A stretch of 58,040 nucleotides of DNA, taken from Gluconacetobacter sacchari (lineage in GTDB: Bacteria > Pseudomonadota > Alphaproteobacteria > Acetobacterales > Acetobacteraceae). Shown here piece after piece: positions 33,659-44,401 of this stretch; the stretch's first letter is position 1; every line of letters starts with the position of its first letter. The translations under genes were made by a program, and so were the position numbers. The stretch is from assembly GCF_014174255.1 (NCBI RefSeq), contig NZ_JABEQJ010000029.1, forward strand, positions 1 through 58,040, written 5' to 3'. The notes below the pieces were generated by a model. It made no database searches, was not told the origin of the DNA, and saw nothing but the letters and a program-made list of their open reading frames with translations.

Positions 33659-33730
33659 GCGGACCGCGCCGGCCGCATCCGCGCGATTTAAGGCTTGCGT
33701 CCGGGCACGGCCTGTCCGACATCACGCCCC

Positions 33731-34366
33731 ATGGCCTATATGATCAAGGAGATGTTCGCGACCCTCCAGGGTGAGGGCGCGCACGCCGGCCGCGCCGCCG
33801 TGTTCTGCCGTTTCGCCGGATGCAATCTCTGGTCGGGGCGGGAGGCCGATCGCGCGGGCGCGACCTGCCGCTTCTGCGACACCCATTTCGTCGGCACCGA
33901 CGGCGAGGGCGGCGGCCGCTTCCCCGACGCCGCCTCCCTGGCCGACGCCATCGCCGCTACCTGGGCCGCGCCCGGCATGGACCACGCCTTCGTCGTCTTC
34001 ACCGGCGGCGAGCCCCTGCTGCAACTCGACGCGCCCCTGATCGCGGCGGTGCATGCGCGCGGCTTCGAAATCGCCATCGAGACCAACGGCACCCTCCCCG
34101 CCCCCGAGGGCATCGACTGGATCTGCGTCAGCCCCAAGGCCGGCGCGCCGCTGGTCCAGCGCACCGGCCACGAACTCAAGCTGGTCTACCCCCAGCCCGA
34201 CCGGCTGCCCGAAACGGTGGCCGACCTCGATTTCCGCCAATTCTGGCTCCAGCCGATGGACGGCCCCGACCAGGCCCGCAATACCGAACAGGCGGTCGCC
34301 TATTGCCGCGCCCACCCGCGCTGGCGCCTGTCCTTGCAGACCCACAAGCTGATCGGGATTCCCTGA
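33731..34366 (+). CDS. queE: 7-carboxy-7-deazaguanine synthase
   Basis: This 211-residue radical SAM enzyme forms the 7-deazaguanine core of queuosine. It has [20 protein letters not shown] and the modified cluster motif in which the first cysteine is separated from CRFC by a long insert, typical of one QueE subtype. GGEPLLQ and ETNGTLPAP follow. It starts 73 bp after bioB and leads the queE-queC-queD-SulP operon. No preQ1 riboswitch was seen upstream. Confidence 0.92.
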
Positions 34367-34367
34367 G

Positions 34368-35105
34368 ATGGCCGCCTCCCTCACGCCCGCCGACCCGCAA
34401 CGGGAAAGCGCGATCGTCCTGTTCTCCGGCGGCCAGGATTCCGCGACCTGCCTCGCCTGGGCCCTCTCGCGCTTCGGCCGGGTCGAGACGCTCGGCTTCG
34501 CCTACGGCCAGCGCCACGCGGTGGAACTGGCATGCCGCGACACGCTGCGCGCGGGCATGGCGGCGCGCGACCCCGCATGGGCGGCCCGGCTGGGCGAGGA
34601 CCACACACTGGCGCTCGACGCCCTGGGCGCGGTCTCCGACACCGCGCTGACGCGCGACGCCGCCATCACGATGAACGAGAACGGCCTGCCCAGCACCTTC
34701 GTCCCCGGCCGCAACCTCATCTTCCTCACCTTCGCCGCCGCGCTGGCCGCTCGCCGAGGCGCCCGCCATATCGTCGCCGGCATGTGCGAGACCGACTATT
34801 CCGGCTACCCCGACTGCCGCGACGACACGATCAAGGCCATGCAGGTGGCGCTCAATCTCGGCATGGCCAGCCGCCTGGTCCTGCACACGCCGCTGATGTG
34901 GATCGACAAGGCCGACACCTGGCGCCTCGCGGAAACCCTCGGCGGCCCCGACCTGGTCTCGCTGATCAACCGCGAGAGCCATAGCTGCTATCTCGGCACA
35001 CGCGACGTCATGCACCCGTGGGGCCATGGCTGCGGCACCTGCCCGGCCTGCGACCTGCGCCGCGCGGGGTGGGAACGTTACAGGGCGGCCCGCGCCGATG
35101 CTTGA
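34368..35105 (+). CDS. queC: 7-cyano-7-deazaguanine synthase
   Basis: This 245-residue PP-loop ATPase makes preQ0 from carboxydeazaguanine. [15 protein letters not shown] is the ATP-binding loop; [17 protein letters not shown] and the C-terminal zinc site with [13 protein letters not shown] are standard. The start is one base after the queE stop, and the end overlaps queD by 8 bases. Confidence 0.95.
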
Positions 35106-35625
35106 CCTCGTCTTCACCCGCCGCTTCTCGATGGGCCACCGGCTGATCCACGGCGCCAGCGAAAGCTGCGCCCTGCCCCACGGCCACAACGAATTCGTCA
35201 CCGTGCGCCTGCGCCCCACCGCGCCCCGCCCGCTGGACGGCGCGGGCAACATGGTCGTCTCCTTCCAGCGCGCCAAGGCCCGCTGGCATCGTTTCGTGGA
35301 CGACCGGCTGGACCATGCCCTGCAACTGGCCGAGGACGATCCCCTGCTGGCCTGGTTCCGCGCGCACGAGCCCGCGCGCGCCCGTCGCATCGTCGTCACG
35401 CCCGGCGACCCGACCACCGAACTGATGGCCTGCCTGATGATGGCCAAGCTGAACGCGCTGCTGGACGACGACGGCGCCCTGCTGCGCTGCGCCGAGATCA
35501 CGTTGCAGGAAACCCCGACCAACACCGTCCGTTACGAAGGCGATCCGCTGGAGATGCTGCCCATGCCCCGCCCGGCGGCGCAGTGCTGGTGGCTGCGCGC
35601 CGACGACAGCATCGCCGATGCCTGA
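35098..35625 (+). CDS. queD: 6-carboxytetrahydropterin synthase (QueD)
   Basis: This 175-residue T-fold enzyme converts dihydroneopterin triphosphate to carboxytetrahydropterin. The zinc histidines are in SMGHRLIH and HGHN; the catalytic Cys is in SCALPHGHN and a Glu in QETPTNTV. It is longer than the about 120-residue E. coli enzyme, with extra loops. The ATG at 35098 lies inside the queC end; its own end overlaps the transporter start by 8 bases. Confidence 0.92.
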
Positions 35626-37144
35626 CCGGGCCATGTCCGGCCTCGCGCGCTACCGCGCCGAATGGACGGCCGATCCGGTGCGCGAGGTGCTGGCCGGCAT
35701 GGTCGGCACCTTCGCGCTGATCCCCGAGGTCATCGCCTTCTCCTTCGCCGCCGGGGTGGCTCCGGAGGTCGGGCTCTACGCCTCCTTCGTCATCAGCGTC
35801 GTCATCGCCATCGCGGGCGGCCGCCCGGCGATGATCTCCGGTGCCGCCGGCTCGGTCGCGCTGGTCGCGGCGGCGCTGGTGCGCGCCCACGGCATCCATT
35901 ATCTGCTCGCCGCCACCCTGCTGGCCGGACTGTTGCAGATGCTGGCCGGCGCGGCCCGGCTGCATCTGCTGATGCGCTACGTCTCCCGCCCCGTCCGCAC
36001 CGGCTTCGTCAACGCGCTGGCCATCCTGATCTTCTCGGCGCAACTGCCGCACATGGTCCATGTCACCTGGCACACCTACGCCCTGATCGCGCTGGGGCTG
36101 GCCATCATCTACGGCGTGCCGCGCCTGTTCACCGCCATCCCATCGCCGCTGCTCTGCATCCTGGCCCTCACGCTGGTCGCCACGATCTGGCCCATGCCGG
36201 TGCATAGGGTGGCCGATCTGGGCCGCCTGCCCGACAGCCTGCCCCATCTGCTCTGGCCACGGGTGCCGCTGTCCCTGTCCACGCTGGAGACCATCCTGCC
36301 CTTCGCCGCCGCCATGGCGATGGTCGGCCTGCTGGAATCGATGATGACCGCCAGCGTGGTCGACGACCTGACCGAAACCCATGGCCGCAAGCGCACCGAA
36401 TGCGTCGGCCTCGGGCTGGCCAATGTCGCCGCCGGCCTGTTCGGCGGCATCGCCGGCTGCGGCATGATCGGGCAGACGGTGGGCAACCTGCGCTATGGCG
36501 GGCGCGGCCGGCTCTCGACCTTCGTCGCCGGGGCGTTCCTGCTGCTCCTGATGGTGGCGCTGCGGCCGTGGGTCGCCCGCGTGCCGGTCGCCGCCCTGGT
36601 GGCGATCATGATCATGGTCTCGGCCAGCACCTTCTCCTGGGCGTCGCTGCGCGACCTCCGCACCCACCCGCGCGGCGGCAGCGTCGTCATGCTGGTCACG
36701 GTCGCGGTGGTGGTGGCCACCCACAATCTGGCGGCGGGCGTGCTGGCCGGCGTGCTGCTCAGCGGCCTGTTCTTCGCCGCCACCGTCTCCCGCCTGGTCA
36801 CGGTCGAAACGCACTACGACCCCGGCACCGACACCCGCACCTACGGCGTGACGGGCCAGATCTTCTTCGCCTCGGCCGACCTGTTCGCCGAAAGCTTCGA
36901 CACGCGCGACACCGCCCGCCATATCCGCATCGACCTGCGCCACGCCCATTTCTGGGACATCACGGCCGTCGGCACCCTGAGCGATATCGTCGCGCGGATG
37001 GAAAGCCACGGCCTCGCCGTCGACATCGTGGGCCTCAACACCGCCAGCGCCACCCTGATCGACCGCCATTCAGACCTGAACGTCACGCCATCGGATCACG
37101 CGACGCCCACGGCGCGACGCCCCTCGCAGACCGGCGCCGAATGA
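35618..37144 (+). CDS. SulP family anion permease with STAS-like domain
   Basis: This 508-residue SulP-family protein has about 10-12 membrane segments (AGMVGTFALIPEVIAFSFAAG, FVISVVIAIAGG, GLLESMMTASVVDD and others) and a C-terminal STAS-like domain ending with FWDITAVGTLSDIV. SulP members move sulfate, bicarbonate or other anions. The start overlaps queD by 8 bases, so its translation is coupled to the queuosine genes, which is an odd place for a sulfate carrier. It may serve another substrate. Confidence 0.88.
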   Translation: MPDRAMSGLARYRAEWTADPVREVLAGMVGTFALIPEVIAFSFAAGVAPEVGLYASFVISVVIAIAGGRPAMISGAAGSVALVAAALVRAHGIHYLLAATLLAGLLQMLAGAARLHLLMRYVSRPVRTGFVNALAILIFSAQLPHMVHVTWHTYALIALGLAIIYGVPRLFTAIPSPLLCILALTLVATIWPMPVHRVADLGRLPDSLPHLLWPRVPLSLSTLETILPFAAAMAMVGLLESMMTASVVDDLTETHGRKRTECVGLGLANVAAGLFGGIAGCGMIGQTVGNLRYGGRGRLSTFVAGAFLLLLMVALRPWVARVPVAALVAIMIMVSASTFSWASLRDLRTHPRGGSVVMLVTVAVVVATHNLAAGVLAGVLLSGLFFAATVSRLVTVETHYDPGTDTRTYGVTGQIFFASADLFAESFDTRDTARHIRIDLRHAHFWDITAVGTLSDIVARMESHGLAVDIVGLNTASATLIDRHSDLNVTPSDHATPTARRPSQTGAE

Positions 37145-37285
37145 CGATTTTCTCCTGACGGACTCGGTTCTCTCGCGATCCGGCTGAGAATCTTGCCATG
37201 TCCGGCACGGCAAAGCGTCTCGAACGCGCGGTCGTCACCGCCAGCGGGACGCCATCACCGTCATCAGCCGGGTCGGGTATCCGAT

Positions 37286-38167
37286 TCACACCCTGTCACG
37301 ACCCGGCGCGCGATCCCCCGTTTTGCCGCTCTCCGGCGCGGCGAACGGGTCCGGCGCCCCATCGGCGGCCGGCGCGCCAGCCGATTGCGCATGCAGACTC
37401 TGCGCGGCCTGGAGCGAGAGAGCCGCCGCCGCCCCTTCGTCACCCGCCTGCCGCGCCGCGCGGGCCGCCAGGGTCAGTGCCCGCGCCATGCCCCGATAAT
37501 CCACAAGCTGCCGCCGCAGGTCGGCGGCCTCGACCGCCAGTTCGCGCGCCGCCGCCGGCTCCCGCGCCAGCCGCAGCCGGGCGTTCAGCTCATCCTCGTC
37601 CGCCTGCCATTTCGCGGCCACCGGGCGCTTGTGCGCCAGATGCGCCACGGCCCGCGCCAGCATCGCCCGGTCGCCCCGTCCATCGGCGATCAACCCGGTC
37701 AGCAGGCTCGCCTGCTCCGCGATCGCCGGGTCGGCGCTCGCCATGGCGCCGGCGGCCAGCGGCGCGGCCTCGCCATCCCGCGACAGCCGATGCAGGGCGG
37801 CGGCCTGCGCCAGGTCCAATCCGGCATCTCTCCCCGTGCGGCCCCGCACCGCCATCGCGGCCCGCGTGGCCGCGATGGTGGACAGCGCATCGCCCGGCCG
37901 ATCCTGCGCCAGTTGCACCACCGCCAGGTTATAGCCCGCATCGCCGATCGCCCCGGCATCGTCACGCGCCAGCGCGCGCGTGCCGGCCTGCCGGTACTGG
38001 CCCTCCGCGACCGTCAGCCGGTCCAGCCCCGCCGCCTGGTGCCCCGCATCCATCGCCTGGTCCAGCACCGCGTCGCCGGCCGGCCCCGCCTTGCCGCCCC
38101 CGCATCCCGCCAGCACCGGCATGGCCAGCGCCAGCAGCAGCACGCCGCGCGGATATCCCCCGCTCAT
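37286..38167 (-). CDS. Lipoprotein with helical repeats, last gene of the Mla-like operon
   Basis: This 293-residue protein has a lipoprotein signal (GVLLLALAMPVLAGC, acylated Cys at about 22). It is followed by Ala/Arg-rich helices with TPR-like spacing (AEGQYRQAGTRALARDD, DALSTIAATRAAM, EASLLTGLIADG-like units). Its ATG overlaps the MlaD stop. It may play the role of the outer-membrane or periplasmic partner of the transporter. No family name can be given with confidence. Confidence 0.62.
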   Translation of the reverse strand: MSGGYPRGVLLLALAMPVLAGCGGGKAGPAGDAVLDQAMDAGHQAAGLDRLTVAEGQYRQAGTRALARDDAGAIGDAGYNLAVVQLAQDRPGDALSTIAATRAAMAVRGRTGRDAGLDLAQAAALHRLSRDGEAAPLAAGAMASADPAIAEQASLLTGLIADGRGDRAMLARAVAHLAHKRPVAAKWQADEDELNARLRLAREPAAARELAVEAADLRRQLVDYRGMARALTLAARAARQAGDEGAAAALSLQAAQSLHAQSAGAPAADGAPDPFAAPESGKTGDRAPGRDRV

Positions 38168-39120
38168 GGCGCGATCCTCCCGGCGGGCAGACGGTGCGAC
38201 GCCGGAGTCTTCGCGCCCCCGCCACCCAGCAGCCACAGACCGCGCAACTGGTCCGTCAGCTTCTGGAGGCTGGCGGCGGTCGTCTGCGCCTGCGTCAGCA
38301 GCACCGGCAGTTCGGCCGACGTCTCCCGCAGGTTGCGGCTGATCGCGGGCATGTCCGGGCTGGCCTTGCGCAGGTCGGCCGACATGGCGCGGACATTGGC
38401 CATGCTGGCATCGGCCTTCGCCATCACCGACGACAATTGCCGCTCGACCGGCGTCAGCCTGGTCACGGCCTCGTTCAGCGACGCGACCAGGGCTTCCGCC
38501 TGCCGGATCAGCTTGTCGTCGGTCATCAACTGTCCGGCGGTCCCCTTGCCGGCATGCAGGTCCGTCACCGTGGCATCCAGCATCGACATCATATGCTGCG
38601 CGCTGTCGAGCACCGGCAGCACGCGCGCCCGGATATCGGCGAAGGTCTGGGTGATCATGTCGGCCGGGTTGGGCGCCGGGTGCGCGGTCAGCACGGCATA
38701 ATGCCAGTCCATCGCCTCGCCCGCGCCGCGCGTGATGTCGATATAGTTCGCCCCCGCCACCACGAAGCGCCGCCGGATGGTGGCGGTGCTGTCGCGACGG
38801 ATGAAGGGCTCGATATCGGGGTCGATATCGGCGATCGCATACATGCCGCCCGTCGGATTGATGCGGATACGCCGGATGGTGCCGGCATGGATACCCACCA
38901 CCTCGACATCATTGCCCGGCGCCAGCCCGCTGACGCCGCCATCGGGCAACACGATCTGCAATCGCCCCGCCGGGGTCAGCCAGTTATGCAGCACACCCGC
39001 CTCGATCACGGCGGCGAAGCAGATCACCAGCGACACCAGCACCAGCAGCCCGACCCACTCGTCGGCATAGCGCACGCGCACCAGTTGCCGTGTCAGGCCC
39101 TTCACTTGATCCTTGGCCAT
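38164..39120 (-). CDS. MlaD/MCE-domain lipid-binding protein
   Basis: This 318-residue protein has one N-terminal membrane anchor (WVGLLVLVSLVICFAAVIEAG). An MCE domain follows (VSGLAPGNDVEVVGIHAGTIRRIRI, RRDSTATIRRRFVVAGANYIDI), then a long helical C-terminus. MCE rings form a channel for phospholipids between membranes. Both ends overlap neighbours by ATGA: the ABC gene upstream and the lipoprotein downstream. The C-terminal region has repeating helices (ASLNEAVTRLTPVERQLSS) expected for the tube of a hexamer. Confidence 0.85.
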   Translation of the reverse strand: MAKDQVKGLTRQLVRVRYADEWVGLLVLVSLVICFAAVIEAGVLHNWLTPAGRLQIVLPDGGVSGLAPGNDVEVVGIHAGTIRRIRINPTGGMYAIADIDPDIEPFIRRDSTATIRRRFVVAGANYIDITRGAGEAMDWHYAVLTAHPAPNPADMITQTFADIRARVLPVLDSAQHMMSMLDATVTDLHAGKGTAGQLMTDDKLIRQAEALVASLNEAVTRLTPVERQLSSVMAKADASMANVRAMSADLRKASPDMPAISRNLRETSAELPVLLTQAQTTAASLQKLTDQLRGLWLLGGGGAKTPASHRLPAGRIAP

Positions 39121-39815
39121 CAGACCCCCCGCACCGGGAAAAGGCCTTCGTCGAGAAGGCGCAGATGAACATTCACCGCCGGCCGGTACTCGGCCCAGGT
39201 CGCGCCATGGCGCGCGAACCACATCACGGCGGCGCCCCGGTCGCGCGCCGCCGTGATCGCCTCCAGCAACGCCACCGTCGCGTCCGGCGGCAGCATGTCG
39301 GACACGTCCTCCAGCATCAGCAGGTCGGGCCGGCCGAGAAAGGCCCGCACGCACGACGCCCGCGCCAAGTCCGCCGCCGAAAGCCGCCCGGGACTCGTCA
39401 GCGGCAGGCCCGGAAAGCCGAACGCCTGCCCCAGGCTCATCGCCTCCGCCACCACATCGTCGGTCGGGCGCGTGGTATGGTGCAGTTGCTGGAGAATGAT
39501 GTTCTGGTGCGTGCCGAACAGGTCCAGCCAGGACTCGCGCCGGGTGATCCGCCCGATGCGCCCGCGCAGGGCATAAAGCTGGCGGTCTCCCAGCGCGGTC
39601 CAGTCCAGGCCCATGAACCGCACGCTGCCCGAAGCCAGCGCGACCATGCCGCAGCACAGGTCGGCAAACAGCGTGGCCCGCGCATAGTCCCGGCAGTCCA
39701 CGATCGCGCAGTCCCCGGGCATCAACCGCAGGTCGACCGGCACCGGCGCCATGCCGCTTTCGTCGAATGACGGCTGGGCGGCGCGAAGCTCCAGGATCGG
39801 TCCATCAGTCCCCAT
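39120..39815 (-). CDS. MlaF-like ABC ATPase homologue with degenerate motifs
   Basis: This 231-residue protein sits where MlaF belongs and keeps the overall ABC layout, but its motifs are altered. The Walker A position reads VDCRDYARATLF, with no Gly-rich loop, Lys or Ser. The Q-loop position has TRRES. The signature is RLSAADLARAS rather than LSGGQ-type. Walker B is LLMLEDVSD, and the H-loop is WFARHG. The loss of the P-loop lysine makes ATP hydrolysis unlikely. It may be a structural or regulatory subunit, or may pair with an active ATPase elsewhere. It lies 3 bp after mlaE and overlaps mlaD. Confidence 0.72.
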   Translation of the reverse strand: MGTDGPILELRAAQPSFDESGMAPVPVDLRLMPGDCAIVDCRDYARATLFADLCCGMVALASGSVRFMGLDWTALGDRQLYALRGRIGRITRRESWLDLFGTHQNIILQQLHHTTRPTDDVVAEAMSLGQAFGFPGLPLTSPGRLSAADLARASCVRAFLGRPDLLMLEDVSDMLPPDATVALLEAITAARDRGAAVMWFARHGATWAEYRPAVNVHLRLLDEGLFPVRGV

Positions 39816-39818
39816 GGC

Positions 39819-40691
39819 TCACCCCCAGAGGCTGAACAGGATGTTGACGACCATCACCGTCATGATGCCCCGGGCGAAGCCGCGCGGCATCAGGGTGGCG
39901 ATCGTGTCGTCCACATCCGCCAGCAGCCCGGTCATGCAGGCCCCCAGCCCGACGAAGAAGCCGACCAGGATGAATTTCAGCGGAATGACCACGAAATCCC
40001 ACGACGACATCGCCCCCAGCACGTTGGCGAAGAAGGTCCACACCGATGTCGTGATCACGCCCGACGCATGGGTGATGATAAAACCCATCAGCAGCGCGTT
40101 GGTGGCGAACAGGATGCCGAGCGTGAAGCCGCCGAGCATGAACGCGCAGGTGCGGGGCAGCACCAGCAGCAGGAACGGGTCCATCCCCTGCGCCTGCAAG
40201 GCGCGGATCTGCCCGCCCAGCGTCAGCAGGCCGATTTCCGTCAGCACCAGCATGCCGCTGCGCCCCAGCAGGATGATCCCGACCAGCACCGGCGAGATCT
40301 CGCGCACCAGCACCGATACCAGGATCGATCCGGTCATCTGCGCCATTCCGGCGAACCCCAGCCAGTAGACCGCCTGCGACACCACCATCAGCCCCGCCAG
40401 CGTGGCGGTGATCACGGTGCTCAGGAACCCGCCCCCCACGACCTGGCTCAGGCACAGGCGGAATTCGTCGCGCACCGTCCGCCGCCACGCATTGGGGCGC
40501 ATGCTCTCGCGCACCACCCCCCAGGCCGAGCCGATCAGCACCAGCACGAACCGCACCTGGTGCCGGGTCAGCCGGCCCAGCCAGGCCAGCGCCGGCCGGA
40601 CCCGCCCCGGCATCGACGCCAGCCAGCCCGGCCGGCGGCCATCCGCGGCCTCGGTCGGCGTCGGCGTCGGCGCGGCCGCCCCGCCCGTCAT
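39819..40691 (-). CDS. MlaE-like ABC permease
   Basis: This 290-residue permease has the MlaE/Ycf63 arrangement: an amphipathic N-terminus and five to six membrane helices. LVREISPVLVGIILLGRSGMLVLTEIGLL contains the conserved ExG-type coupling loop, followed by QALQAQGMDPFLLLVLPR-like sequence. The N-terminus has a Pro/Thr-rich tail. Its ATG overlaps the stop of the sensor gene. Family members move phospholipids in the inner membrane with MCE proteins. Confidence 0.86.
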   Translation of the reverse strand: MTGGAAAPTPTPTEAADGRRPGWLASMPGRVRPALAWLGRLTRHQVRFVLVLIGSAWGVVRESMRPNAWRRTVRDEFRLCLSQVVGGGFLSTVITATLAGLMVVSQAVYWLGFAGMAQMTGSILVSVLVREISPVLVGIILLGRSGMLVLTEIGLLTLGGQIRALQAQGMDPFLLLVLPRTCAFMLGGFTLGILFATNALLMGFIITHASGVITTSVWTFFANVLGAMSSWDFVVIPLKFILVGFFVGLGACMTGLLADVDDTIATLMPRGFARGIMTVMVVNILFSLWG

Positions 40692-43060
40692 CGCCGCCCC
40701 GCCAGGACATAGGTACGCGTCATGCCCGCATGCGGCACGAAGAAGCGCCCCCGCTCACGGAACAGGAACCGCCCGCGCAGGATCTGGTAGACATCCTCCG
40801 ACACCTGGATGGTGCCGACATCGGGCGCGCCCTGGGCCATCATTTCAGCCATGCCGATGGCATCGCCCCACAGATTGAAGACCTTCGGATCCTCGCCCAG
40901 CAGCCCGCCGAAGACCGGGCCGACATCGATCCCGATGCGAAAGACCGGGTCCAGGTCGGCCCGCGACAGGATCGACAGCGACGCCTCGCGCATCACCAGG
41001 GCCGCATTTGCCATCCGCTCGGCGGCTCCGGGGTCGGGCGTGTGCGAACATCCCGCCACGCAGACCAGCCGGTGGCCCAGCATCTTGATCGAATACAGCC
41101 CGTATTGCCGCGCCACGGTCTGCAACTGCACCGCCAGCGCCTCGACCAGCGCAATGACCCGCGCGGGGTCTGCGCGCGACGAGGTGATGATGTCGGCAAA
41201 GGTAATGACCATCACCGCCACCGCGGGAAACAGCCCCTCCACCGCGCCGCCCTGCCCGTCGGGCCGGGTGCTGCCGGGCGGGACCAGGAACCCGTCGCCG
41301 AAGGCATGTTCCGCCTCCTCCGGCGGCGGCGGCGCCAGTTCGCTCGCGGCGGCGGTCACGGCGCTGTAATGCTGGGCGGCGAAGCGCGCCGCCGCCACGC
41401 CGGCGATCATGTCCACGAAATGCGAGGCCAGCCCGGCCCGCGACGCATCCTCCAGCGTGATCATGCCGATCGGCCCCGATGCCCCAACGATGGGCGCCAG
41501 GAACAGGCTCCGGCTGCCGAAGGTCCGCATGAACAGCCGATGGAAACTGACCGTCCGCTCGTCCGCCCCGGCATCGGCCACGATGGTCGCCTCGCCATGG
41601 GCCACCAGGTCGAAAAAGGCCTGAAGGTCGCCACGCGACAGTTCGAACCCGCCCGAATGGGCATCATGGCGCGAGTCGTAGGAATCGACGCACAGCAACG
41701 TGGCCCCGTCATGCATCAGGCGCCAGATCGAGGCCCGCCGCGCCGACGCCATCTCCGCGAGGCTGCGCGTCAGGATCAGGGCCTCGTCGGTCGGGTCGAA
41801 CAGCGCCGGATAGCTGGCCACCGCGCGCAGCGCCTGGCTTTCACGCCCCGAGACGGCACGCAGCCCCGCCAGTTCCGCCGTCACCCGATCGGTCCGCCGC
41901 CCCTGGCGGAACAGCAGCACCCCCAGCAGCCCGGCCAGGACGACGATCAGCAGCGAGAACATCAGGTTCTGCCGCCCGTCCACCATCGCGAAATTGGCGA
42001 AATCGCTTTCCGGCGCAACCAGGATCAGCACCCATTTCTTCGCCGTCGATGGCAGGGCCGCCGCCATGGTGACGAAATTGCGCTTGCCGTTGCGGATCCC
42101 GTGCGGGCCGTAGCCCTCCACGCGATAGACATCGAACGCCTGCGACAGCACCGGATAGATCCGGGGGTCCAGGACCATTTTCGCCGGGTCCCAGTTGGCC
42201 TGCTTCGCCACGTCCAGCATGTGCCGCCCGGCCAGCAGATGCCCGTCCTGGTCCAGGATCAGCGCATGGCCGCTCTTGCCGATCTGGAGCGAATTCAGGA
42301 AATTCGTCAGTTCGTTCATCGACAGGTTGATGGCGAAGACGAACTTCCGGTCCCCCTGTCCCTGATAGACGATCGAGGCCGTGATGATCATCTGGCCGGT
42401 CTGGGTGATCAGATAAGGCGCCGACCAGTACAGCTTGCCGGTTTCGGCCGCGCCGCGAAACCAGTCGCGGGTGCGCGGGTCGTATCCGCCAGTCGGGTTG
42501 TTCTCGGCGCGCAGCGCGGCACCCTTCTCGTCGAAAAACTGATGGACGAACCGCGCACCCGCGCCCTCGCCGCTCAGATGCGTCGTCTCCAGCCCCTTCC
42601 CCTTGGGGTCGCGCTCGATCAGGTCGAATCCGCCGTCCGAATCGGCCAGATAGAAGGAATGGACCTGCGGCACATGGCGCAACATGCTGCCGCCATAGGA
42701 ATTGAAGATCTTGATGATCGCGGCCTGCGAGCCATGTTCCAGCATATCGCGCGCGATCACCGTCCCGGCCGTCGCCGGGCCCAGGTAATCGCCGACTTCC
42801 TGGGCGATGTAGTTCTGCTGGCTGACCAGCAGGTCATGGGTCAGCGCCAGCGCGCCGGAGCGGATCGAGCGATAGGAATGCAGGCCGATCGCCCCGATGA
42901 CGGCAACCACCAGCACCACGCCGAAGATCGGAACACCGACATGCAGCAGAAAACGCCTGAGCCGATCGGAATGCGCTTCTGCGGGGTCCACGATCTCGTC
43001 AGCGGTCAATGATCTCTTCCCGGTCTGTTGGCCCAGAGCGCACGGCGGCCGCCCCGCCAC
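40688..43060 (-). CDS. dCache-GAF sensor with degenerate class III cyclase domain
   Basis: This protein of about 790 residues has an N-terminal membrane segment (VPIFGVVLVVAVIGAIGLH), a long periplasmic dCache sensor with PRTRDWFRGAAETGKLYWSAPY-like sequence, and a second membrane segment (LMFSLLIVVLAGLLGVLLF). GAF-like and nucleotide-cyclase domains follow. In the cyclase domain the first metal Asp is kept (TFADII), but the second lies in IKMLGHRL, where GD is expected. The transition-state Asn and Arg of NVASRM are GMAEMM. It is therefore likely inactive as a cyclase. Start is probably GTG at 43060. The stop overlaps mlaE, tying a sensor to lipid transport. Confidence 0.75.
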   Translation of the reverse strand: MAGRPPCALGQQTGKRSLTADEIVDPAEAHSDRLRRFLLHVGVPIFGVVLVVAVIGAIGLHSYRSIRSGALALTHDLLVSQQNYIAQEVGDYLGPATAGTVIARDMLEHGSQAAIIKIFNSYGGSMLRHVPQVHSFYLADSDGGFDLIERDPKGKGLETTHLSGEGAGARFVHQFFDEKGAALRAENNPTGGYDPRTRDWFRGAAETGKLYWSAPYLITQTGQMIITASIVYQGQGDRKFVFAINLSMNELTNFLNSLQIGKSGHALILDQDGHLLAGRHMLDVAKQANWDPAKMVLDPRIYPVLSQAFDVYRVEGYGPHGIRNGKRNFVTMAAALPSTAKKWVLILVAPESDFANFAMVDGRQNLMFSLLIVVLAGLLGVLLFRQGRRTDRVTAELAGLRAVSGRESQALRAVASYPALFDPTDEALILTRSLAEMASARRASIWRLMHDGATLLCVDSYDSRHDAHSGGFELSRGDLQAFFDLVAHGEATIVADAGADERTVSFHRLFMRTFGSRSLFLAPIVGASGPIGMITLEDASRAGLASHFVDMIAGVAAARFAAQHYSAVTAAASELAPPPPEEAEHAFGDGFLVPPGSTRPDGQGGAVEGLFPAVAVMVITFADIITSSRADPARVIALVEALAVQLQTVARQYGLYSIKMLGHRLVCVAGCSHTPDPGAAERMANAALVMREASLSILSRADLDPVFRIGIDVGPVFGGLLGEDPKVFNLWGDAIGMAEMMAQGAPDVGTIQVSEDVYQILRGRFLFRERGRFFVPHAGMTRTYVLAGRR

Positions 43061-43121
43061 GATAGGATACCATCAACGCAAAGACCAACCCGCGGGATGC
43101 GTGCCAGCCATCCGGCCGCCG

Positions 43122-43802
43122 TCAGGACGACCAGATCGGCTCCTTCAGCTTCTCCACAAAGCGCGCATGCGCCGCCAGTTCCTCGGGCGACGGCACGATC
43201 GGCCGGGGCGTGCGGCCACTCACGCGCTCATAGCTGTGCGCCACCGGCCCGCCACCGCCATCCTCCACCATCAGCCCCAGCCCGCGCTGCCGGCCGCCCA
43301 TCAGTTCCAGATAGACCTCGGCCAGCAGGCGGCAATCCAGCAGCGCGTTATGGGTGGTGCGGGCCGACAGGTCGATGGAAAAGCGCCGGCACAGCGCGTC
43401 CAGGCTGTTGGGCAGGCCCGGATAGCGCTCACGCGCGATATCCAGCGTATCGACCATCCGGTCCAGCGACAGTTCCGCCCGCCCGGCCCGCTCCAGTTCG
43501 GCGTTCAGGAAGCCGAAATCGAAGCGCGCATTATGGGCGATCATGTCATCCTGGCCGATGAAAGCCAGGAATCCATCGGCAATTTCCTGAAACTTCGGCT
43601 TCCCCTCCAGGTCCGCCAGCGTAAAGCCGTGTACGCGCGTCGCCTCCTCGGGAATGTCGCGCTCCGGATGGATCAGCACATGGAAATGCTGCCCCGTCGG
43701 CAAATCGTCGATCAGTTCCAGGGCCGCGATCTCGATCACCCGGTCCCCCTTCCTGGGGTCCAATCCAGTGGTTTCGGTATCGAACAGGATCGATCGCTTC
43801 AC
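43122..43802 (-). CDS. dnaQ: DNA polymerase III subunit epsilon (proofreading exonuclease)
   Basis: This 226-residue DEDDh exonuclease proofreads replication. ExoI is FDTETTGLD, ExoII HNARFDFGFL and ExoIII HNALLDCRLLAEVYL. A GTG start overlaps the coaE stop as GTGA. The C-terminal tail is where the alpha subunit binds in other bacteria. Confidence 0.93.
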   Translation of the reverse strand: MKRSILFDTETTGLDPRKGDRVIEIAALELIDDLPTGQHFHVLIHPERDIPEEATRVHGFTLADLEGKPKFQEIADGFLAFIGQDDMIAHNARFDFGFLNAELERAGRAELSLDRMVDTLDIARERYPGLPNSLDALCRRFSIDLSARTTHNALLDCRLLAEVYLELMGGRQRGLGLMVEDGGGGPVAHSYERVSGRTPRPIVPSPEELAAHARFVEKLKEPIWSS

Positions 43803-44401
43803 GCTACTTTCCTCTCCGCGCGCAACCGCGCGACCAACCGCCGCACCCGGCGCACGGTATCGTTCCGCGACAGGCCGGTCCGGATCACATCATCCGCCCG
43901 CCGCCGCTTCTCCCGATCGGGCATCTGGCGCGCGATCACCGCCGCCACCTCGGCCGGCGCCATGCCGCGCCGCCGGGCAACCCGATAGGCCTGCACATCC
44001 GGCGGCGCCGACACCACCGCCACCCGGTCGCACAACCGGTCCCCCCCGGTCTCGAACAGCAGCGGCACGTCCAGCACCACCCAGGTCCGCCCCGCCCGCC
44101 GCGCGCGCGCCAGAAAGCGGTCGCGCTCCTGGCGCACCAGCGGGTGGATGATGCGTTCCAGCCCCGTCATCACCGCCCGGTCGGCAACGGCCGCGCGCCG
44201 CAGCACCGCCCGATCCAGCACCCCGTCCCGCACCGCGCCGGGCACCAGCCGCCCGATCGCCGGCAACGCCCGGCCACCGGGCGCCTGCAACGCATGGACC
44301 GCCGCATCGGCATCGAAGACCGGAAAGCCGGCCCGCCTCAGCATCCCGGCCACCGTCGACTTGCCCATACCGATTCCGCCGGTCAGGCCCAGGATCCGCA
44401 T
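43799..44401 (-). CDS. coaE: Dephospho-CoA kinase
   Basis: This 200-residue last enzyme of CoA synthesis begins MRILGLTGGIGMGKSTV, with the P-loop, and has FDADAAVHALQAPGG and VLDVPLLFETGGD. The start at 44401 is 2 bases after the aroE stop. The aroE-coaE-dnaQ order is frequent in alphaproteobacteria. Confidence 0.94.
   Translation of the reverse strand: MRILGLTGGIGMGKSTVAGMLRRAGFPVFDADAAVHALQAPGGRALPAIGRLVPGAVRDGVLDRAVLRRAAVADRAVMTGLERIIHPLVRQERDRFLARARRAGRTWVVLDVPLLFETGGDRLCDRVAVVSAPPDVQAYRVARRRGMAPAEVAAVIARQMPDREKRRRADDVIRTGLSRNDTVRRVRRLVARLRAERKVA

Follow-up and report, generated by a model that had tools for sequence, protein, structure and literature searches.

An Mla/Mpc-like gene cluster with a degenerate ATPase homologue and a frequent but optional pseudo-cyclase sensor in Gluconacetobacter sacchari and other Acetobacteraceae

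How does a lipid transport system of the Mla type operate when the ATPase homologue encoded within it has lost the residues that ordinarily serve ATP hydrolysis? This question is raised by five minus-strand genes at positions 37286-43060 of contig C29 (NZ_JABEQJ010000029.1) in the 4.83 Mb genome of Gluconacetobacter sacchari, a member of the family Acetobacteraceae; the whole 58,040-nucleotide (nt) stretch analysed is called the window below. Read along the minus strand, these genes encode a sensor (g1), a permease (g2), an ATPase homologue (g3), an MCE protein (g4), and a lipoprotein (g5), and their presence as a unit was confirmed. A sequence-only reading of the window had described them as overlapping or abutting genes of Mla-like composition, which agrees with the junctions (4-nt overlap of g1 and g2 at ATGA, 3-nt gap between g2 and g3, 1-nt overlap of g3 and g4, 4-nt overlap of g4 and g5) as well as with the MlaE and MlaD/MCE matches of g2 and g4 and the ATP-binding cassette (ABC) homology of g3. 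Judging from its sequences, the cluster appears to be an Mla/Mpc-like trans-envelope lipid system, which occurs in many Acetobacteraceae and differs from those described, and its products are likely to form a lipid conduit.

The gene g3 (39120-39815, minus strand) encodes a protein of 231 amino acids (aa), which, by its homology to nucleotide-binding domains (NBDs), is a descendant of the ABC ATPase superfamily. It is not matched by Pfam ABC_tran at E 0.1 and matches the FtsE, DevA, and MlaF models far under their curated cut-offs, while an FtsE chain (E 3e-7) and MlaF chains were matched in the PDB. Aligned to FtsE, its Walker A region reads DCRDYARATL. Among 59 homologues, the column of the Walker A lysine contains no K (58 letters and one gap; A in 37, G in 5, S in 5, R in 4, and others), and both GK[ST] and SGG are absent from all 59. 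The Walker B Asp column holds Glu in 58 of the 59, the Q of the Q-loop is retained in 15, and QLHHT has its second His in all 59. Normal ABC-type hydrolysis of ATP by the g3 product can be considered excluded with near certainty from this alignment, and the ATPase was rightly called non-canonical in the sequence-only reading.

The loss of motifs is accompanied by strong conservation elsewhere. In an entropy profile of 57 g3 sequences (loci L111 and L053 left out), where the mean position has 1.83, the equivalents of Walker A (2.34), the Q-loop (2.60), and the H-loop (2.26) are less conserved than the mean, those of Walker B (0.95) and the signature (1.55) are more conserved, and three segments outside the nucleotide motifs are nearly fixed, namely ALRGRIGR (0.31), FGFPGLP (0.34), and VRAFLGRP (0.70). 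The ratio of nonsynonymous to synonymous substitution rates (dN/dS) of g3 across seven Gluconacetobacter relatives is 0.14-0.26, compared with 0.10-0.21 for the neighbouring dnaQ, so g3 is under purifying selection close to the level on dnaQ; in the same relatives, the ratios are 0.15-0.29 for g1, 0.18-0.45 for g2, 0.09-0.23 for g4, and 0.20-0.33 for g5. Furthermore, none of the 110 strong matches to g3 within the family contains an in-match stop codon; the match in one of them (genome G148) is partial, its copy being broken.

As for the origin of g3, its profile scored best on the canonical MlaF (72 bits) among six reference proteins of the same genome, with 42 bits for a second, Mpc-like MlaF, and the g2 profile likewise scored best on the canonical MlaE (38 bits). 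Against the PDB, the g3 profile scored numerous ABC families about equally, with DppD and BceA placed before MlaF; a proposed descent from MlaF rests on operon context and own-genome scores rather than on a tree. The top Foldseek matches of the g3 structure model, a low-confidence one with a predicted local distance difference test (pLDDT) value of 48, are NBDs, with MlaF (6z5u) third. At E 0.001, g3 escapes the Pfam ABC model in 12 of 13 members, so Pfam-based neighbourhood surveys would tend to overlook this gene.

The cluster is not an oddity of a single genome. A profile built from 13 g3 sequences (A1) was searched against 297 Acetobacteraceae genomes of 91 genera, and 213 of them matched at E 1e-12, most of the weaker matches being ordinary ABC ATPases. 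A strong group with E 5.3e-41 or better is set apart from the next match (E 1.3e-19) and comprises 110 genomes in 35 genera. The distribution is patchy, as the other 187 genomes have no strong match, certain genera (g66, g110, and g117) have one in some members only, and G013, a fragmented genome of the same genus as the G. sacchari cluster, has none. The nearest named relatives are Gluconacetobacter species, with 91 % identity to the g3 homologue of G. takamatsuzukensis. In a class-wide draw of 387 genomes, seven strong matches were obtained, two of them outside the family (G601 and G334), and an MCE profile recovered the same seven; this MCE profile also matched 141 of 250 genomes of the order.

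Gene order was compared at 58 loci besides the G. sacchari cluster, leaving out L045 (a distant generic match), L048 (a duplicate of L043), and two other loci of the cluster's own genome (L054 and L055). All five genes occur in order on one strand at 52 of the 58 loci, including L111, which consists of broken fragments, and L128, in which g1 is split in two frames. Three loci hold g2-g5, and three hold g1-g4 and run into contig ends (L102, L112, and L118). Both loci outside the family (L095 and L096) carry all five genes, and in L050 about 1 kb without a clear gene by eye lies between g1 and g2. At L046, L047, L049, L050, and L051, whose flanks were compared over about 1-5 kb, dnaQ, coaE, and aroE did not turn up, which indicates that the five genes are themselves the conserved unit. 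An order that recurs in 52 of 58 loci, some of them with different flanks, goes beyond chance. The neighbourhood is kept well outside the circle of close relatives, so the local restriction that would have refuted the sequence-only reading did not come up.

The first gene, g1 (40688-43060, minus strand), would encode a membrane sensor of 790 aa if translation starts at GTG 43060, a start that is uncertain. Pfam matched dCache_1 (2.9e-16), GAF (4.4e-7), and, at the C-terminus, Guanylate_cyc (PF00211, 2.3e-22), and in a set of 13 g1 members (A3) these domains were found in 13, 10, and 13 proteins, respectively. Of 56 aligned cyclase domains, all but the piece from L128 (55 in total) carry letters in the catalytic columns, which we take, from the motifs of class III cyclases, to be those of the metal-binding Asp residues, the transition-state Asn, and the Arg. 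The full set of Asp, Asp, Asn, and Arg occurs in none of the 55; the second metal Asp is present in 3, Asn in 3, Arg in 2, and Asp or Glu at both metal positions in 6. The domain is thus like those of class III adenylate and guanylate cyclases with sensory N-termini in its match to PF00211, but unlike in them the second metal Asp, Asn, and Arg stand together in none of the 55. The earlier statement that both enzymatic domains are degenerate is true of every aligned homologue of g3 and of the g1 cyclase. An open frame of 760 codons on the plus strand (40730-43012) lies antisense to g1 and by eye appears to be a high-GC artefact.

The system had also been described as built around this sensor, which is not borne out: g1 is better seen as an accessory. 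It stands with the rest of the cluster in 55 of 58 loci, but loci L097-L099 (genomes G318, G234, and G259, all of genus g110) keep g2-g5 with EamA, BrkB, and Mfd-type genes upstream. The g1 profile found no match at E 1e-30 anywhere in these three genomes, while two control genomes were matched. An obligatory sensor is rejected for them, and the core is accordingly taken as permease, pseudo-ATPase, MCE protein, and TPR lipoprotein.

The permease gene g2 (39819-40691, minus strand; 290 aa) belongs to the MlaE family by Pfam (PF02405, 6.8e-32) and also matches MlaE in the PDB. No STAS match was found in g1-g5 at E 0.1. This test is weak alone, as a 401-aa permease on contig C15 of the same genome also gave no STAS match at E 0.001, in its long N-terminal extension or elsewhere; still, g2 is just 29 residues longer than the plain MlaE of the same genome (261 aa) and leaves little room for such a domain. 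The product of g4 (38164-39120, minus strand; 318 aa) has an N-terminal hydrophobic segment, a single MCE domain at residues 63-132 (MlaD/MCE, PF02470, 6.5e-11), and a long C-terminal part with a conserved region, QLRGLWLLGG; the g4 profile matched the MCE protein of C15 weakly (11 bits).

For the last gene, g5 (37286-38167, minus strand), ATG 38167 is a more likely start than GTG 38236 and gives a 293-aa product with a LAGC lipobox at residues 19-22. No Pfam family matched the G. sacchari protein. Its AlphaFold2 model (pLDDT 82.8) consists of all-helical repeats, and Foldseek retrieved TPR proteins, first PilF (E 2.2e-3), with none at or under 0.001; among 13 relatives, 3 matched a TPR model, at best with 2.2e-4. 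We therefore describe g5 as a TPR-like lipoprotein. It did not match PF03886, and the g5 profile did not match the lipoprotein encoded on C15. Pairs of a g4-like MCE gene and a g5-like TPR gene were also seen at four loci without permease or pseudo-ATPase beside them (L142, 5248-7094; L143, 4626-6574; L144, 4637-6507; L145, 5313-7411), which links the MCE protein to the TPR lipoprotein. An AMP-binding (acyl-CoA synthetase-type) gene lies upstream of the pair in L142 and, by eye, in L143. An ABC ATPase gene some 2 kb from the pair in L144 is unrelated and keeps its motifs. Such a separate pair is the sole MCE-profile match in G302, G725, and G731, which have no strong g3 match. An ancestral form with an intact ATPase was sought through the weaker MCE matches (these three and G736), and nothing but MCE-TPR pairs without permease or pseudo-ATPase came up.

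Our preferred reading, held tentatively and at somewhat short of even chances, is an MCE conduit of Mla/Mpc type in which the ATPase has turned into a non-catalytic docking or regulatory subunit, and the pseudo-cyclase sensor is usual but optional. In such an assembly, the permease g2, of MlaE type, would bear an MCE ring formed by g4 with a helical needle, which g5 would receive or anchor at the outer membrane. Docked at the cytoplasmic side of g2, the pseudo-ATPase g3 would lock or gate this permease. Where g1 is present, its dCache domain may bind a periplasmic small molecule and pass its state via GAF and pseudo-cyclase to g3 or g2, and lipid flow would be opened or closed without ATP hydrolysis by the complex. 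That an external ligand switches lipid traffic, as the sequence-only reading had suggested, is a hypothesis at this point. We lean slightly towards an ATP-free conduit for two reasons. In g3, drift has affected the phosphate-binding part of the nucleotide site, whereas other segments are fixed, and MCE systems free of an ATPase exist, with PqiA and LetA as partners that have no ATPase domain (PMC12436622). A bolder form, in which an ABC lipid transporter evolved into a ligand-gated, ATP-free conduit whose dead NBD and dead cyclase make up a cytoplasmic gate read by the Cache sensor, appears doubtful.

Several points weigh against this preference. Sensor gating cannot be a general requirement, since three genomes lack the sensor, and with a canonical MlaF encoded in trans, ATP independence is no more than a hypothesis. 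Nucleotide binding is compatible with the lost consensus residues, and the conserved Walker B and signature equivalents argue against a freely drifting pocket. With a g3 model as poor as the present one, the conserved residues cannot be placed on a docking surface.

Among the rivals, a borrowed motor survives best, although it is on balance rather unlikely: g3 might form a mixed pair with, or be displaced by, a canonical MlaF from another Mla system of the genome, which would make the complex ATP-driven with one dead site, or it might be a negative regulator that keeps MlaF from docking. This is comparable in principle to the mycobacterial Mce systems, which share one ATPase. The possibility stems from canonical MlaE and MlaF encoded elsewhere in cluster-bearing genomes. 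Two further MlaE loci exist in the G. sacchari genome. One, on contig C7, is a canonical MlaE-MlaF pair (L054, 7268-8844) with no adjoining MCE gene seen and, by eye, a radA-like gene downstream; the other, on C15, is a four-gene Mpc-like operon (L055, 3932-7684) that encodes the 401-aa permease, an MlaF, an MCE protein, and a lipoprotein matching PF03886 (PqiC-type, 8.6e-27). Walker A and signature are intact in both MlaF proteins. A near-full-length canonical MlaE was found elsewhere in 46 of 47 chosen cluster-bearing genomes, the copy of G148 being damaged, and Walker A of the MlaF beside it is intact in the own genome and, in one unbroken match, in six of seven others. The statement in the sequence-only reading that the energy source is unclear stands with this qualification. 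However, the co-occurrence is weak as evidence, as the figure comes from cluster-bearing genomes only, and g2 is so far from canonical MlaE (38 bits) that MlaF need not fit it. In G148 (genus g68), the cluster (L111) and the canonical MlaEF (L135) are both frame-broken, while the same two loci (L105 and L136) are open in its sister genome G080. A joint loss would suit a borrowed motor, but it is a single case in a genome that may be poor or decaying, and we did not use it as evidence of co-loss.

Quite unlikely is a receptor, in which g2, g3, and g4 would form a lipid-sensing complex that reports its state via g1 to the cytoplasm with no net lipid movement. The joining of two degenerate enzymes with a Cache-GAF sensor in one unit would suit this idea, but against it stand an output domain that is degenerate too, three genomes that retain the core although they lack the sensor, and MCE-TPR pairs that occur without a permease. 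Less probable still is a g3 that remains an ATPase or an ATP-binding switch through unorthodox residues. Its two better conserved motif equivalents, the Glu in the Walker B Asp column, and the Q kept in a quarter or so of the sequences speak for it, and the conservation of these two equivalents led us to weigh it slightly higher and the conduit slightly lower; however, neither a lysine nor another fixed residue stands at the Walker A position, three motif segments vary above average, and SGG is missing throughout. Ordinary decay, with g3 and the cyclase domain as role-less pseudogenes in the making, would account for the lost catalytic motifs but is hardly credible and was rejected in view of the missing stops, dN/dS well under 1, and invariant residues in 57 sequences of many genera.

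It is currently asked whether ATP drives lipids through MCE systems or whether these just offer a path, and the direction in which Mla transports lipids is reportedly under debate (PMC10212509). A subunit that was kept while evolution removed its ATPase motifs offers a direct way to ask which roles an NBD has besides ATP hydrolysis, and the cluster would be a case of two pseudoenzymes retained in one operon, one of them the output of a sensor. Its hosts include acetic acid bacteria, whose surroundings contain acetic acid and ethanol, both of which stress membranes.

In the window, aroE, coaE, and dnaQ lie directly upstream of g1 on the same strand, and dnaQ ends about 60 nt ahead of g1. A scan of 37000-43900 returned no sigma-70-like promoter, so the transcript may extend beyond the five genes. 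Convergent with the cluster, the plus strand at 33695-37144 carries radical SAM, QueC, and PTPS genes (a queuosine-type pathway), followed by a SulP-STAS transporter gene (35618-37144). That its STAS domain stands in for MlaB is unlikely, as it lies on the opposite strand and SulP is missing from the flanks read at L046, L047, L049, and L051; at the distant locus L050, however, a SulP match does lie downstream.

No description of the five-gene cluster was found in the open-licence literature searched, which is not proof of its absence. A survey of MCE neighbourhoods lists permease, ATP-binding, and DUF330 neighbours of type I genes, and its accessible part does not mention the present arrangement (PMC5561183). 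As well, the main text of two Gluconobacter knockout studies contains no mention of mla. Compared with known systems, the cluster shares with MlaFEDB of E. coli an MlaE permease, an MCE protein, and an MlaF-like NBD (PMC7367683, PMC7790496). Unlike the catalytic MlaF with its Walker A, signature, and Walker B, which acts with MlaB and carries a C-terminal tail, g3 is devoid of the ATP motifs and falls 33-38 residues short of the MlaF proteins of its own genome (264 and 269 aa). According to a previous study in E. coli, stable association of MlaF depends on MlaB, and assembly requires its C-terminal tail (PMC7367683). No MlaB/STAS partner was detected among g1-g5 at E 0.1, and MlaA and MlaC had no match among the five proteins, these searches covering the cluster.

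The Pqi and Let systems are likewise MCE conduits whose inner-membrane partner has no ATPase domain, but this partner is PqiA or LetA rather than an MlaE permease, and PqiB and LetB contain several MCE domains (PMC12436622). Among described systems, Mpc (the Mla-Pqi chimera) of Brucella abortus comes closest; its core likewise comprises four genes, for a permease, an ABC subunit, a long protein with a single MCE domain, and, last, a lipoprotein, with no MlaA, MlaB, or MlaC genes (PMC12436622). The MCE protein of Mpc has about 330 aa and a long helical needle, and that of g4 has 318 aa; the order of the Mpc core recurs in the C15 operon. Mpc of Brucella possesses a STAS-bearing permease, an MlaF-homologous ATPase, and a PqiC-like lipoprotein (PMC12436622), whereas the present cluster leaves little room for STAS, has a degenerate ATPase, and adds a sensor. 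Its lipoprotein appears TPR-like. To our knowledge, PqiC is not TPR-like, unlike g5. Judged by these sequence features, the cluster is not a member of Mpc, from which it departs in three defining features, the STAS-MlaE permease, the PqiC-like lipoprotein, and the active MlaF-type ATPase.

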